Of a stretch of DNA of 6,177 nt, positions 669 to 6,177 are shown piece after piece (the stretch's first letter is position 1; each line of letters starts with the position of its first letter). The position numbers and the translations under genes are program-made. The notes under the pieces are model-generated. The model had not been told where the DNA came from, did no database searches, and saw nothing but the letters and a program-made list of their open reading frames with translations. The stretch lies in the NCBI GenBank assembly GCA_039804165.1, contig JBDRZZ010000044.1:1-6177 (forward strand). The letters are read 5' to 3'. This stretch comes from a candidate division WOR-3 bacterium (GTDB lineage: Bacteria > Hydrothermota > UBA3072).

Positions 669-1391
669 TACTTTTAAATATCATAGTCAATCAAATGATT
701 TTAGGATTTGAAAGAATAGAGCTAAATAAAAAAATTGTAGAGGAGACAATTCTGAGGATTTCTTTGGAGAGATTTTTTTCCGACTTTAGTAGAACGAATT
801 TTTCGTGATATTAAAAAATATGGAAATTTGAGATGTTACCCCAAAAAAACAGAGGCAACTATTCTTTTTTTAGATATTGTAGGATTCACAAAGATGATAG
901 AAGGACTTCCTCTTATAGAGATTTCTAAAATTTTATGTGATTTTTTTTGATTTAATAGTCAATGAAATATTTGATGAAAATGGGGTAATATATATATGGG
1001 TGATGGATTAATGGCAATTTTTGGAGTTCCTGAGAAGGATGAAGAGCACGCCATTAGAGCTGTTCGATGTGGATTGAGTATTTTAAATAAACATTCTAAA
1101 TTTATAAGTGATTTGCCTAACAACAAAAAATTTAACATACGTATAGGAATTGAATCAGGTGAAGTAATAGCAGGATACATGGGGTCAAGTAAAAGACTGG
1201 AATATACTGCAATGGGTTATGCAGTAGTAGCAGCAAAAAGAATAGAATCTTTAACAAAACCAAATAGTATTTATATAGGAAGGGAGACTTATAGAAAGAT
1301 TTGTCATAGATTCAAAATATTTTTTGTAGGTATATTATCCTTACAGAAAGGTGAGGGGGAAATAGAGGTATGGGAAGTGTTGAGAGATTGA
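669..1391 (+). pseudogene. Broken GAF-class III adenylate/guanylate cyclase (3' part)
   Basis: Coding similarity starts directly after the insertion element. LLLNIIVNQMILGFE resembles the last helix of a GAF domain, followed by a linker and 'LERFF..PTLVERI', the usual entry to a class III cyclase domain. The frame then breaks in a T run at 773-779, continues as 'ILFLDIVGFTKM' (first metal Asp), breaks in a T run at 941-948, continues as 'DLIVNEIFDENG', and breaks a third time at about 985-996. The last frame runs from 996 to 1391: MGDGLMAIFG (second metal Asp), 'NIRIGIESGEVIAGYMGS', 'YTAMGYAVVAAKRIE', ending EVLRD. In active enzymes the latter motif is normally GD.VN.A.R; here Asp is Tyr and the catalytic Asn is Val, although Arg remains. 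The N-terminus is missing. Such proteins make cyclic nucleotides and often carry FHA or GAF sensors. This copy is dead. Confidence 0.85.
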
Positions 1392-1681: not shown

Positions 1682-4051
1682 ATGAAGCCTCTTTCAACTG
1701 GAGCACAAATAGCTATAAGTATAGCTGCTACAGAAGCAAAATTTATACCGAGTCCTTATCTTGAAAATGAACATGTTTTCTTAGGACTTTGCAAAGTAGA
1801 AGATGTATTGACCTTAGATGAAGTAGAGGGGATATCTGAAAACCAGTTTAATGATGCTAAAAGGGAAATACAAAATTTCTCTAATTTTCTCAGATCTTGT
1901 GGCATTGATCCAAAAACTGCTCGCAGAAGATTAAGAGTAATTATAAAATACAAACAACCTGTAGAAAGCAATTTTACAGGTCACAGAAGTGAAAGATGTA
2001 GGGAAATGTTTAATACTGCTGAAAGGATAAGTGATGAAGAAGGGAAATCAAAAATAGAATTAAAACACTTTTTCCATGCTATAATGTTAAATCCCTCTTC
2101 AATCCTTCTGGAGCTTTTTTCAAATCTTGGGTTAAAAGAAATAATAAAAGCTTCTTTATCAAAGGAACCGACGTATGATGAGACAATTGTCATGGAAGAC
2201 ATAAAGAGAGAGACTGAACCTATAGAAAAGGAGAAAAGAACACCAACCCCATTTCTTAATAAATTTGGAAGAGACTTAACAGAACTTGCAAGACAGGGAA
2301 AACTTGAGCCATGCATAGGAAGAAAGGCTGAGATTAAAAAATGTGCTCAAATACTTCTTCAGAAAAGAAAGAATAATCCTATTCTTGTAGGAGAGGCAGG
2401 GGTTGGGAAGACATGTATAGTAGAAGGACTTGCACAATATATAGTAAAACCTGATGCTCATGAAAACTTAAGGAATTTAAGGATTGTTGAAATCAATATG
2501 GGAAGTCTTATTGCAGGAACAAGGTATAGAGGTGATTTTGAAGAAAGACTGGAAAATATAATTAAAGAGGCATCTTCTGAGCCAAACATAATTCTTTTCA
2601 TAGATGAAATACATACAATTGTCGGAGCAGGGGAAGCAGCTGGAGCCCCGCTGGATGCAGCAAATATTCTCAAGCCTGCTTTAGCAAGAGGTGAAATAAA
2701 ATGTATTGGAGCAACCACTACTAAAGAATATAGAAGATATATAGAGAAAGACGCTGCTCTTGAAAGAAGATTTCAAGTAGTATGGGTAGAGGAACCAACG
2801 ATTGAGGAAACAGTTGAGATTATCAAAGGGATAAGAAAGAGATTTGAAGCACACTACGGAATATTTATTCCTGATTCAGTAATTGAAATAGCAATTGAAC
2901 TCTCTGTAAAGTATTTACCTGATCATCGTCTTCCTGACAAAGCAATTGATCTTATTGACCAGGCATGTGCAAGAAAAGCGCTTTTTACTCTTACACCCGG
3001 TAAAAAGTTTGAAGAATCTAATGGATTGACAGTAACGGACATAGCACAGGTATTATCAGAAAGATGTAGGATTCCTGTAAAGGAACTTACGGAAGATGAG
3101 AAAGAAAGGCTTTTAAGAATGGAAGAATATTTTAGACAAAGAGTTATGGGACAAGAGCATGCTATAAAGACAGTAGCAGAAACAATAAGGAAAGCAAAGA
3201 CAGGACTTAAAGATCCAAATAAGCCACTTGGTTCTTTTCTTTTTCTTGGAGCAACGGGGACAGGAAAAACAGAGCTTGCAAAAGCATTGGCAGAATTTTT
3301 GTTTCACTCTGAAGAAAGACTTATTGTAATTGATATGTCTGAATATCAGGAAAAGCATTCTGTTGCAAAATTAATTGGTGCTCCTCCTGGTTATGTAGGT
3401 TATGAAGAAGAAGGATATCTTACAGGGAAAGTGAGAACCAATCCATATTCAGTAGTTCTTTTTGATGAAATAGAAAAAGCCCATCCTGAAGTTCTTGACC
3501 TCTTGCTTCAGATTCTTGATGAAGGTAGACTAACAGATTCTCATGGAAGAAAAGTAAAATTTACAGAAACCATAGTTATTATGACTTCTAATCTTGGAGT
3601 ATCAACCTTACAAAAAGTTAAAAAAATTGGGATAGTAGTTCAAGATGAAGAAACAAAGGATTATGATTCTTATGAAAAAGTTATTGAAGAAGCAGTAAGA
3701 AAAGCTCTGAGACCTGAGCTTTTAAACAGAATTCAGAAAAAGATAATTTTTTATCCTTTAAGTAAAGAGACTATGAAAAAAATTTTAAGAGAAAAATTTC
3801 TTCCGGAGCTTAACAAAAAACTTTTGTTTAAGAATATTAAAGTTAGCTTGACTGAGGAGGCATTAGATTTTATTGTAAGTAAAGGTTACAGTGAAGAGTA
3901 TGGAGCGAGGAATTTAAAGAGAGCTTTTGAACAATATGTTGAAGAACCTCTTTCAGAAAGGATACTGGAAGGTAATTTCAAAGAAGGAGATGCAATAGAA
4001 GTTCAGATGGAAGGTGAAAGTTTAAAATTTAATCTTGGGATAAGTAATTAA
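1682..4051 (+). CDS. ClpA-like double-AAA+ unfoldase, partner of ClpP
   Basis: This is a 789-residue cytosolic ATPase that unfolds substrates for a peptidase. A diverged Clp N-domain occupies about 1-160 (ENEHVFLGL at 28-36; second repeat from about 101), with an unusual stretch between the repeats. D1 has Walker A GEAGVGKT (237-244), pore loop around Y282, Walker B ILFIDEIH (304-311) and arginine fingers ALERRF (359-364). D2 has Walker A GATGTGKT (523-530; most relatives have GPTGVGKT), pore motif GYVGY (570-574), Walker B VVLFDEIEKAHP (591-602), sensor TSNLG (635-639), RPELLNRI (677-684) and sensor-2 GAR (741-743). The D1-D2 linker is short, so the ClpB/ClpC coiled-coil middle domain is absent, as in ClpA. 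KKIGIVVQDE (647-656) aligns with the ClpP-docking loop of ClpC/ClpA (IGF/VGF/IGL), supporting pairing with the ClpP encoded at 4851. No clear ribosome binding site precedes the ATG; a stop codon lies in frame at 1673. Coupling to the small gene is plausible. Confidence 0.93.
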   Translation: MKPLSTGAQIAISIAATEAKFIPSPYLENEHVFLGLCKVEDVLTLDEVEGISENQFNDAKREIQNFSNFLRSCGIDPKTARRRLRVIIKYKQPVESNFTGHRSERCREMFNTAERISDEEGKSKIELKHFFHAIMLNPSSILLELFSNLGLKEIIKASLSKEPTYDETIVMEDIKRETEPIEKEKRTPTPFLNKFGRDLTELARQGKLEPCIGRKAEIKKCAQILLQKRKNNPILVGEAGVGKTCIVEGLAQYIVKPDAHENLRNLRIVEINMGSLIAGTRYRGDFEERLENIIKEASSEPNIILFIDEIHTIVGAGEAAGAPLDAANILKPALARGEIKCIGATTTKEYRRYIEKDAALERRFQVVWVEEPTIEETVEIIKGIRKRFEAHYGIFIPDSVIEIAIELSVKYLPDHRLPDKAIDLIDQACARKALFTLTPGKKFEESNGLTVTDIAQVLSERCRIPVKELTEDEKERLLRMEEYFRQRVMGQEHAIKTVAETIRKAKTGLKDPNKPLGSFLFLGATGTGKTELAKALAEFLFHSEERLIVIDMSEYQEKHSVAKLIGAPPGYVGYEEEGYLTGKVRTNPYSVVLFDEIEKAHPEVLDLLLQILDEGRLTDSHGRKVKFTETIVIMTSNLGVSTLQKVKKIGIVVQDEETKDYDSYEKVIEEAVRKALRPELLNRIQKKIIFYPLSKETMKKILREKFLPELNKKLLFKNIKVSLTEEALDFIVSKGYSEEYGARNLKRAFEQYVEEPLSERILEGNFKEGDAIEVQMEGESLKFNLGISN

Positions 4052-4064
4052 AATGTGAAAATTC

Positions 4065-4766
4065 ATGGAAAAACATAATTTTTTGGTAGTTTTGGAAGGA
4101 GAACCTTACGAAAAAAATGAGTGTTTACCTCTTCCAGATTTTGAAAAGATAATTCTTGGCAGATCTCAAGGACAACACAAAGCAGATATAAGCTTTGATA
4201 GTCTTTATATCTCAAGAATTCATGCAGAAATTCAGTGCATTAATGGGAAATATTACATAAGGGATTTAAGTAAACATGGAACATGGCTTAATCATAATAA
4301 AATTGAAAAGGGTAAATTTTATGAGCTTAAAGATGGAGATGTTATTATTTTGAGTAAAAGAGAAGCTGTTTTAATTTGTCGGTTAAATTATGAGCCTGGG
4401 CAAACATTTGATTATATTGAGTTTAGCCAAACTCAAATTGAAAACTTCGTAGATAAAACTGCGAAAGATAATATTATCTTTGAAAAGGAAAAAAGGAAAG
4501 TAAAAATTCACAACAAAGAATATGAGCTAAGTGGAAGGGAGTTAAAACTTTTTGAAATACTATACGAAAATAGAAACAAGGTAGTAAGTGTAGAAGCCAT
4601 CATCAATTACATATGGCCTAAAAGAGCGGTTTCAGACCGTTATGTAGTAACTCCCGAGGAAGTAAGGCAGGTTGTCTACAGACTTAGAAAACGTTTAGAT
4701 CCTTATGGGAATAAGTATATAAGAACTTTAAGAGGTGAAGGTTTTTTACTTGAGATACCAGAGTAG
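4065..4766 (+). CDS. FHA domain - winged-helix (OmpR-type) DNA-binding regulator
   Basis: This protein has 233 residues. The N-terminal FHA domain covers about 25-105: GR at 32-33, SRIHAEI at 50-56 (Ser50, Arg51, His53), YYIRDLSKHGTWLN at 63-76, then a GD turn at 91-92. These are the residues that bind phosphothreonine in FHA domains. A linker of about 35 residues leads to a C-terminal Trans_reg_C winged helix (about 143-233): YELSGRELKLFEILYENR, VVSVEAIINYIW, EEVRQVVYRLRKRLD, and the wing IRTLRGEGFLLE. There is no receiver domain, so control by phosphorylation would come through phosphopeptide binding rather than Asp phosphorylation. The gene starts 13 bases after the ATPase stop codon with only a weak ribosome binding site (GTGAAAA). 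An in-frame ATG at 4053 is followed at once by TGA, so 4065 is the start. Binding partners and target promoters are unknown; the tandem repeats near 1404 are one candidate. Confidence 0.92.
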   Translation: MEKHNFLVVLEGEPYEKNECLPLPDFEKIILGRSQGQHKADISFDSLYISRIHAEIQCINGKYYIRDLSKHGTWLNHNKIEKGKFYELKDGDVIILSKREAVLICRLNYEPGQTFDYIEFSQTQIENFVDKTAKDNIIFEKEKRKVKIHNKEYELSGRELKLFEILYENRNKVVSVEAIINYIWPKRAVSDRYVVTPEEVRQVVYRLRKRLDPYGNKYIRTLRGEGFLLEIPE

Positions 4767-4771
4767 ATTTT

Positions 4772-4812
4772 CCCTATGAGGGTTGCTATGGCTTAAAAAA
4801 GTATCTTTAAGC
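4772..4812. promoter_or_regulatory. Two inverted repeats between regulator gene and clpP
   Basis: CCCT-ATG-AGGG (4772-4782) and GCTTAAA ... TTTAAGC (arms 4791-4797 and 4806-4812, 8-base loop) lie in the 84-base gap, the longest within the cluster. Neither is followed by a T run and the stems are AT-rich and short, so a strong intrinsic terminator is unlikely. They could be operator sites, an attenuator or an RNA-processing hairpin that sets separate clpP expression. Confidence 0.4.
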
Positions 4813-4838
4813 TCTCATCTTTAATGGAATAAAAAATA

Positions 4839-4845
4839 GGGAGGA
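4839..4845 (+). promoter_or_regulatory. Ribosome binding site of clpP
   Basis: GGGAGGA lies 5 bases before the ATG at 4851. It is much stronger than the sites of the two preceding genes, consistent with a higher need for the 14-subunit peptidase. Confidence 0.8.
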
Positions 4846-4850
4846 AATAA

Positions 4851-5441
4851 ATGGGTATTCTTAAAGTTCCATATGTAATAGAACAGACACCTGCAGGAAT
4901 AAGACATGTAGATATCTATTCTCGGCTTCTTTCTGAAAGGATGATTTTTCTTACTGGCGAGATTAATGATGATGTAGCAGACATAATCACAGCTCAACTT
5001 TTTTACCTTGAGGCAGAAGATCCTAAAAAGGATATTTACTTTTACATAAACAGTCCAGGAGGTGTGGTAACAGCTGGATTAGCTATTTATGATGTTATGC
5101 AATATATAGCCTGTGATGTAGTAACTATTTGCATAGGGCAGGCAGCATCAATGGCTGCGGTGCTACTTGCAGGAGGCAAAAAAGGAAAGAGAATGGCTCT
5201 TCCTAATGCAAGAATAATGATTCATCAACCACTGGGAGGTGCTCAAGGACAAGCGAAAGACCTTGAGATACAGGCAAGGGAAGTAAACAGAATAAAAGGA
5301 GTTATTAACAAAATTTTATCTTATCATACAGGACAGCCTATTGAAGTTATTGAAAGAGATACAGATAGAGACTTTTTTATGACAGCTGAAGAAGCAGTAA
5401 AGTATGGGTTGATTGATAAGGTTATATATAAAAAAACTTAA
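4851..5441 (+). CDS. clpP: ATP-dependent Clp protease proteolytic subunit ClpP
   Basis: This is a serine peptidase of the S14 family, 196 residues, the usual length. It forms a two-ring 14-mer in the cytosol that degrades proteins threaded in by Clp ATPases. The catalytic triad is complete: Ser100 in GQAASMAA, His125 in [11 protein letters not shown], and Asp174 in [13 protein letters not shown]. Also seen are the N-terminal VPYVIEQ axial-loop region, [15 protein letters not shown], and [17 protein letters not shown] (oxyanion and substrate-binding strand). No signal peptide is present and the protein starts close to the mature form. The usual GQAASMGA is GQAASMAA here, a mild change. The gene sits apart from clpX and tig, at least in this window, and beside a ClpA-like ATPase, so it may be a dedicated or second copy, or the only one in the genome; the window cannot tell. 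Confidence 0.97.
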
Positions 5442-5444
5442 TGT

Positions 5445-6177
5445 ATGAGATTAGATATGAAAAACTTAAGAGCATCTGCTCTTACAGACAAGGGGGTAGT
5501 GAGACAAAACAATGAAGATGCCTTTTTTATTGATGAAGAAAGAGGTATCTTCATCGTAGCAGATGGTATGGGAGGTCATAATGCAGGGGAGGTGGCAAGC
5601 AGTCTGGCTGTAACTACTATTAAAGATTTTCTTTATAAAAAAGGAGATATACAGGACAGTAAACAAATTAAGAAAGCCCTTGTTGAATCAATATTTTCTG
5701 CTCATGAAGAAATTAAGAAAAAATCAGAACAAGAAAATTCCCTCAAGGGAATGGGAACCACGGTTGTTGTAAGTTATCTAAAGGATAGAACATTACATAT
5801 ATGTTCGGTGGGTGATAGCAGAGGATATCTTATAAGAGATAAAAAAATTATTAAGCTTACTGAAGACCATTCTGTAGTAGCAGAGCTTCTTAAATCAGGT
5901 GTAATTAATGAAGAGGAGGCTAAGTTACATCCTATGAAAAATGTAATAACTCAGGCTCTTGGAATAGGAACCCCACCTATTCCATTTTTTGTAAGAGAAC
6001 AACTCAGAGACGATGACTTAATTTTATTATGCACTGATGGCTTAACAGAAATGCTAACGGATGAGGAAATTTTGTCCACATGCTTACAAAAAAGAAATAA
6101 TATTTCAGATATGGCTAAGGCTTTTATTGATGAGGCAAATAAAAAGGGAGGAAAAGACAATGTAACGGTTGTTTTGA
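5445..6177 (+). CDS. PP2C-family Ser/Thr protein phosphatase, 3' end cut by window
   Basis: This is a metal-dependent phosphatase (PPM/PP2C, like bacterial Stp/PrpC) that removes phosphate from Ser/Thr in cytosolic proteins. All metal and signature motifs are present: NNEDA (Asp25), VADGMGGHNAGE (Asp40-Gly41), GMGTTVV (102-108), SVGDSRGYLIR (121-131), LTEDHS (138-143), NVITQALG (166-173), CTDGLTEML (Asp198) and GGKDNVTVVL (Asp238). At 244 visible residues it is close to the usual 240-260, so only a few residues and the stop should lie beyond the window. The ATG at 5445 begins 3 bases after the clpP stop; a second in-frame ATG at 5457 is equally possible and has a GAG 7 bases upstream. Neither has a strong ribosome binding site, suggesting coupling to clpP. 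Its natural opponent would be a Hanks-type kinase, not visible here. Confidence 0.95.
   Translation, partial: MRLDMKNLRASALTDKGVVRQNNEDAFFIDEERGIFIVADGMGGHNAGEVASSLAVTTIKDFLYKKGDIQDSKQIKKALVESIFSAHEEIKKKSEQENSLKGMGTTVVVSYLKDRTLHICSVGDSRGYLIRDKKIIKLTEDHSVVAELLKSGVINEEEAKLHPMKNVITQALGIGTPPIPFFVREQLRDDDLILLCTDGLTEMLTDEEILSTCLQKRNNISDMAKAFIDEANKKGGKDNVTVVL

Follow-up and report, generated by a model that had tools for sequence, protein, structure and literature searches.

Adaptors and arginine phosphorylation are known to control bacterial Clp proteases. In Bacillota, the CtsR-McsA-McsB-ClpC system keeps a regulator and an arginine kinase within the clpC operon (PMC5506225), an operon that was confirmed in a sequence annotation. 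In the PrkA/PrpC-ReoM-ClpCP pathway of Listeria, a Hanks-type kinase and a PP2C-type phosphatase govern the degradation of MurA by ClpCP (PMC7286690), and in Mycobacterium phosphorylation by PknH stimulates the DNA binding of the regulator EmbR (PMC4601284). No description of an operon joining an FHA gene with Clp genes was found in the open-access literature. The locus analyzed here lies in the draft genome (1.96 Mb, 49 contigs, 95% complete) of a candidate division WOR-3 bacterium, on a contig of 6177 bp (C44) which is the whole stretch of DNA that was analyzed and is referred to as the window. It joins a predicted phosphothreonine reader with DNA-binding power, a predicted eraser and what is likely their own Clp protease, and offers a small, testable parts list. 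It differs from described systems in combining these known parts in one cluster.

Gene content of the window

All four genes of the cluster lie on the plus strand. The gene of an HSP100/Clp unfoldase (1682..4051, 789 aa), assigned from its open reading frame and Pfam/NCBIfam matches, is followed by the gene of a regulator with an FHA domain and an OmpR/PhoB-type winged helix (4065..4766, 233 aa), by the second clpP of the genome (4851..5441, 196 aa) and by the gene of a PP2C-type Ser/Thr phosphatase of the Stp1/PrpC family (5445..6177), which encodes 244 aa up to position 6176 before the contig end cuts its open frame. A previous sequence-only reading had described four intact same-strand genes with gaps of 13, 84 and 3 bases. 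The coordinates and gaps were re-read and are exact, and the first three genes are indeed intact, but the PP2C frame is still open at 6177. The identities given to the FHA-winged-helix protein, ClpP and PP2C were confirmed by Pfam and NCBIfam domain matches. The label “ClpA-like” for the unfoldase agrees with its architecture, which lacks an M domain, but not with its scores, which stay below the cut-offs of all NCBIfam HSP100 models.

Judging from the 13- and 3-bp gaps, co-transcription of the four genes is plausible. The 84 bp that separate the FHA gene from clpP (4767..4850, plus strand), with a GGAGG-type ribosome-binding site ahead of clpP, would leave room for another promoter; neither promoter nor terminator signals were in excess in this gap, and the counts of the promoter scan were at chance level.

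The part of the window 5′ of the cluster contains several damaged genes. A remnant of a class III (adenylate/guanylate) cyclase at 795..1391 (plus strand) carries at least two frameshifts, in a run of T and in an AT repeat. Its C-terminal part is open at 996-1391, where the Guanylate_cyc match lies, and its upstream half is spread over other frames. This remnant is probably a neighbour outside the Clp system. A truncated IS256/Mutator-type transposase of 142 aa (178-606) lies at the start of the contig, where the GC content is higher, and exists as a single copy in the genome. A contig break caused by a repeat at the window start was ruled out, as the first 700 bp occur only once in the genome. 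A small open reading frame at 1482-1676 has a GGAGG-type ribosome-binding site and a frameshift after about 12 codons; its second part (AIYTLSKKIQTLEGFMLVLDLKTNKRKTIEIPLEKKDYSKELRRAKIMIRFG) stops just short of the unfoldase start.

The unfoldase and its predicted ClpP partner

The unfoldase contains two Walker AAA+ modules (Pfam AAA, AAA_lid_9, AAA_2 and ClpB_D2-small) and aligns with ClpC across both of them. ClpC is also its closest match among solved structures. The NCBIfam models of ClpB, ClpA and ClpV (TIGR03345) gave 805, 726 and 663 bits against cut-offs of 1232, 993 and 885, respectively, and on these curated scores the protein is not a ClpA, ClpB or ClpV proper. Its N-domain is divergent: Pfam recognized no Clp_N there, no relative of this domain was found in IMG/VR, and its structure model (mean pLDDT 47) was too poor for use. 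A plasmid search yielded only generic ClpB/ClpC and OmpR-domain matches.

At the site of the M domain the unfoldase has only about 30 residues, compared with about 80 in ClpC and 143 in ClpB. In the alignment, its ClpP-docking loop 'KKIGIVVQDE' stands opposite 'KYVGFNVQDE' of B. subtilis ClpC. The core IGI of this loop aligns with VGF of B. subtilis ClpC, IGL ('SIGL') of E. coli ClpA and VGF of a sequence from another genome of the phylum (G125), its third residue being I and not F or L. The loop is missing from the aligned sequences of a ClpB-like paralogue in the same genome (contig C14), of G129 and of E. coli ClpB. The combination of a ClpC-like loop with the lack of an M domain makes a ClpP partner likely. 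As clpP stands two genes 3′ of the unfoldase gene, we infer from these sequences that both products likely form a dedicated two-part Clp protease.

ClpP and the PP2C phosphatase

The ClpP of the window matches CLP_protease with an E-value of 2e-85, reaches 311 bits with TIGR00493 (cut-off 308.6) and matches the solved E. coli ClpP with an E-value of 1e-79. The catalytic S (GQAASM), H (MIHQP) and D (ERDTDRD) align with those of the E. coli enzyme. The other clpP of the genome adjoins clpX on contig C17; its product is 58% identical to the window ClpP, while the window ClpP shares 66-68% identity with ClpPs from other families of the phylum. Given this clpP-clpX pair, the clpP of the window is an extra copy. 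The genome also contains further HSP100 genes, and the cluster is an accessory second Clp system, probably with a patchy distribution.

The phosphatase scored 259.6 bits with NF033484 (Stp1/IreP; cut-off 230) and matches solved bacterial PP2Cs with an E-value of 1e-41. It includes the metal-binding Asp motifs of the family (NEDAFF, DGMGG, GDSR, TDGLT and DNVT). Its C-terminus is missing, the frame being open to the last base of the contig, past 'KDNVTVV', a motif which in bacterial PP2Cs lies close to the C-terminus.

The FHA-winged-helix regulator

The regulator combines an FHA domain (residues 30-96; E-value 2e-18) with a winged helix (residues 151-229), which matches Trans_reg_C with an E-value of 1.5e-14 and 54.2 bits (cut-off 26.2). 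With GRS, SRIH and KHGTWLN the FHA domain exhibits the signature (GR, SxxH, N/H-G) that predicts phosphothreonine binding. The structure model of the regulator matches FHA and OmpR-family DNA-binding domains, including the folds of CovR and ArlR.

Relatives of this protein are rare. The other 146 genomes of the phylum, including those of the same genus and family, contained no match at 1e-10, and weaker matches within the order cover a single domain. No strong relative was found in phage and viral sets including IMG/VR, and a phage or virus origin was rejected on this result and on the absence of N-domain relatives of the unfoldase from IMG/VR. A distant FHA-winged-helix protein in Paenibacillus has no clp gene nearby. 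In a scan of 84,980 species genomes a single close relative was detected (69% identity by tblastn, 73% by MAFFT), with GRS, SRIH and KHGTW common to both copies. This locus (L012) is a 3.2-kb contig of 3x coverage (JANXDN010000062.1) which is filed in an Aenigmatarchaeota MAG; the contig is bacterial-looking and probably misbinned.

The FHA-winged-helix gene of L012 is intact. The 91 bp just 5′ of it share 80% DNA identity with positions 3033-3123 of the window, inside the unfoldase gene, and soon run into stops. By its alignment this stretch is a 30-codon clpA relic, located as clpA is in the window. No second unfoldase match was found in the Aenigmatarchaeota MAG, and neither clpP nor a PP2C gene lies 3′ of the FHA gene of L012. 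From the relic ahead of this FHA gene it follows that the order clpA-FHA was present in another lineage and predates C44. At the same time, the four-gene set is not obligatory, as L012 goes without clpP, PP2C and an intact clpA.

Hanks-type kinases in the genome and beside related unfoldases

The window contains no kinase gene. Three loci of the genome exceed the Pfam Pkinase cut-off. The closest kin of the unfoldase in the phylum, also by domain layout, belong to three species of one other genus (L047 in G125, L048 in G126 and L049 in G124), where the gene of a Hanks kinase with many TPR repeats lies 1-4 bp 5′ of the gene of a divergent HSP100 protein without an M domain. The N-domain motif HRSExCRxxFxxAE is common to the window unfoldase and this kinase-linked kin. 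Their grouping is supported at 100/98 in the full tree and at 100/96 when E. coli ClpA is left out and the tree is built from the AAA parts only. It is probable, the tree program warning of long branches that meet and the members being only about 42-45% identical. As the kin stand directly behind a Hanks-TPR kinase gene in another genus, the unfoldase subfamily is linked to Hanks kinases, which is independent evidence that it serves settings of Ser/Thr phosphorylation. Judged from the open reading frames, the stretches read around the kin contain no FHA, ClpP or PP2C gene. The kinase-unfoldase pair, kept in three species of one genus, merits a separate study.

One of the kinases of the genome (L052; contig C24 of G000, 7273-9195, minus strand) is fused to an FGE-sulfatase domain. 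Its gene starts 14 bp inside the contig end and points inward, and GGAG stands right at the contig edge. Codon 113 of this gene is an in-frame TAG; the kinase may be dead or the TAG may be a base error. At 1e-40, none of the other 146 phylum genomes yielded a relative of its 491-aa part; this kinase and the FHA gene are both private to the genome among the phylum genomes searched. Were C44 and C24 adjacent, the PP2C gene would gain eight codons before a stop that overlaps the start of the kinase gene, which makes a join of both contigs suggestive. Their ends do not overlap, but this is uninformative as no contig ends overlap anywhere in the assembly. Many contig ends (C1, C3, C11, C12, C18, C22, C31, C41 and others) share long near-identical stretches, which indicates that dispersed repeats broke the assembly. 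These stretches are missing from C44 and from the C24 end.

Discussion

The cluster might be an accessory proteolysis module controlled by phosphothreonine, working like CtsR-McsB-ClpC or PrkA/PrpC-ReoM-ClpCP. In this reading, to which we give slightly less than an even chance, threonines would be marked by one of the three Hanks-type kinases of the genome, most suggestively the one at the C24 edge. The FHA-winged-helix protein would be a one-component regulator whose DNA binding is altered once a phosphothreonine peptide docks, its target probably being the promoter of the module itself or a small regulon. The dedicated unfoldase-ClpP protease would then remove a target, perhaps the regulator, and the PP2C would strip the phosphates and thereby reset the state. 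Gene content and order, domains, the ClpP loop, the second clpP, the kinases of the genome and the kinase adjacency of the unfoldase kin are observations, whereas co-transcription, the partnership with ClpP, the acting kinase, the degraded protein and any feedback are inferred. A self-contained circuit encoded jointly as clpA-fha-clpP-pp2C-kinase, accessory among uncultured bacteria, in which the regulator itself is recruited or released for ClpAP degradation through phosphothreonine, as a phosphothreonine analogue of CtsR-McsB-ClpC, appears quite unlikely.

The sequence-only reading had likewise proposed a switch made of a kinase, the FHA protein, Clp proteolysis and PP2C. The kinases in the genome, the ClpP loop together with clpP and the kinase-linked kin of the unfoldase all argue for it, and a genome devoid of Ser/Thr kinases, which that reading had named as speaking against the switch, is not what was found with three loci above the cut-off. 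The conservation of the gene neighbourhood, however, largely fails, as no strong relative of the regulator exists in the 146 phylum genomes and L012 lacks clpP and PP2C. The kinase-linked unfoldase kin with neither FHA nor ClpP gene in the stretches read, the window without a kinase gene, the in-frame stop of the C24 kinase and the long branches in the unfoldase grouping also speak against the switch. The complete four-gene set is known from one instance, which limits the confidence.

A possible, somewhat less likely explanation is a loose neighbourhood in which an accessory Clp operon stands beside an ordinary local one-component regulator and a general Stp-type PP2C untied to proteolysis. 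The PP2C, a standard Stp1/PrpC member, could indeed serve the kinases of the genome generally, and HSP100, FHA and PP2C genes could have mixed by chance around such a generic phosphatase. FHA-winged-helix proteins also exist without clp neighbours, and L012 lost clpA yet kept its FHA gene. Mere neighbourhood fits less well with gaps of 13 and 3 bp, with clpP being flanked by two separate phosphothreonine-pathway genes and with unfoldase kin that is kinase-linked in another genus. Both the phosphothreonine switch and the loose neighbourhood would be compatible with C44 being foreign, i.e., misbinned or recently transferred from another thermophile, in which case the kinases of the genome would be uninformative about it. 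The FHA gene is missing at 1e-10 from genus, family and phylum, the ClpP is closer to ClpPs of other families (66-68%) than to that of the genome itself (58%), and the contig is just 6 kb long and ends without overlap to other contigs. L012, its sole relative, is a small contig as well and is filed in a MAG that makes an improbable host. Nevertheless, a foreign origin is somewhat unlikely in our view: overlaps are absent throughout the assembly, the estimated contamination is 0, and GC content and tetranucleotides are bin-typical (distance 0.178 versus 0.174 ± 0.047 among pieces of the genome itself), a fit for which binning itself selects.

Loci for type VI secretion (T6SS) also join an HSP100 ATPase, FHA, PP2C and a kinase, and the unfoldase reaches 663 bits with the ClpV model TIGR03345. 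That the cluster is a piece of a T6SS control set (ClpV, Fha/TagH, PppA, PpkA) is nonetheless extremely improbable. The ClpV score is below the cut-off of 885, the unfoldase carries a ClpP loop with clpP in the same cluster, the regulator has a winged helix and a TagH match that is weak and local, and the contig contains no T6SS structural gene. A T6SS fragment was rejected by the ClpP loop, the neighbouring clpP and the ClpV cut-off. An anti-phage defence system was rejected as well, as PADLOC yielded generic AAA, PP2C and kinase matches and none for the FHA protein or ClpP. The cluster is real, uncommon and made of known parts, at best a variant of phospho-controlled Clp proteolysis and at worst a loose neighbourhood.

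Compared with described systems, the window has its HSP100, FHA and PP2C parts in common with the threonine phosphorylation pathway of T6SS (PpkA, PppA, Fha, ClpV), but differs from it by ClpP, the ClpP loop and the FHA-winged-helix fusion, with no T6SS genes on the contig. A divergent N-domain, together with a ClpP loop in some members, is also known from ClpI and other non-canonical HSP100 classes (PMC10149685); ClpI contains an M domain, which the window unfoldase lacks. EmbR and EspM are, like the regulator of the window, transcription factors with an FHA and a DNA-binding domain, and no clp neighbours are described for them in the cited papers (PMC4601284, PMC7002343). EmbR has the order OmpR-type domain-BTAD-FHA, unlike the window regulator, whereas EspM shares the N-terminal position of the FHA domain (PMC7002343) but has a different, larger DNA-binding half.

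The PrkA/PrpC-ReoM-ClpCP pathway resembles the window in linking a Hanks kinase and PP2C with Clp proteolysis, a control that is predicted for the window. It acts through the small protein ReoM instead of an FHA transcription factor, and no single clp operon is described for it (PMC7286690). The CtsR-McsA-McsB-ClpC system likewise brings together a DNA-binding regulator, protein phosphorylation and an unfoldase with a ClpP loop, and an arginine phosphatase (YwlE) resets it (PMC5506225). There, the kinase is encoded in the operon and clpP and the phosphatase elsewhere, whereas the window includes clpP and PP2C but no kinase. The folds of CtsR and the window regulator are unrelated. CtsR signaling relies on phospho-arginine and has no FHA domain, while the code predicted for the window is phosphothreonine; if this is true, the operon would add both a new code and a new lineage to phospho-controlled proteolysis.
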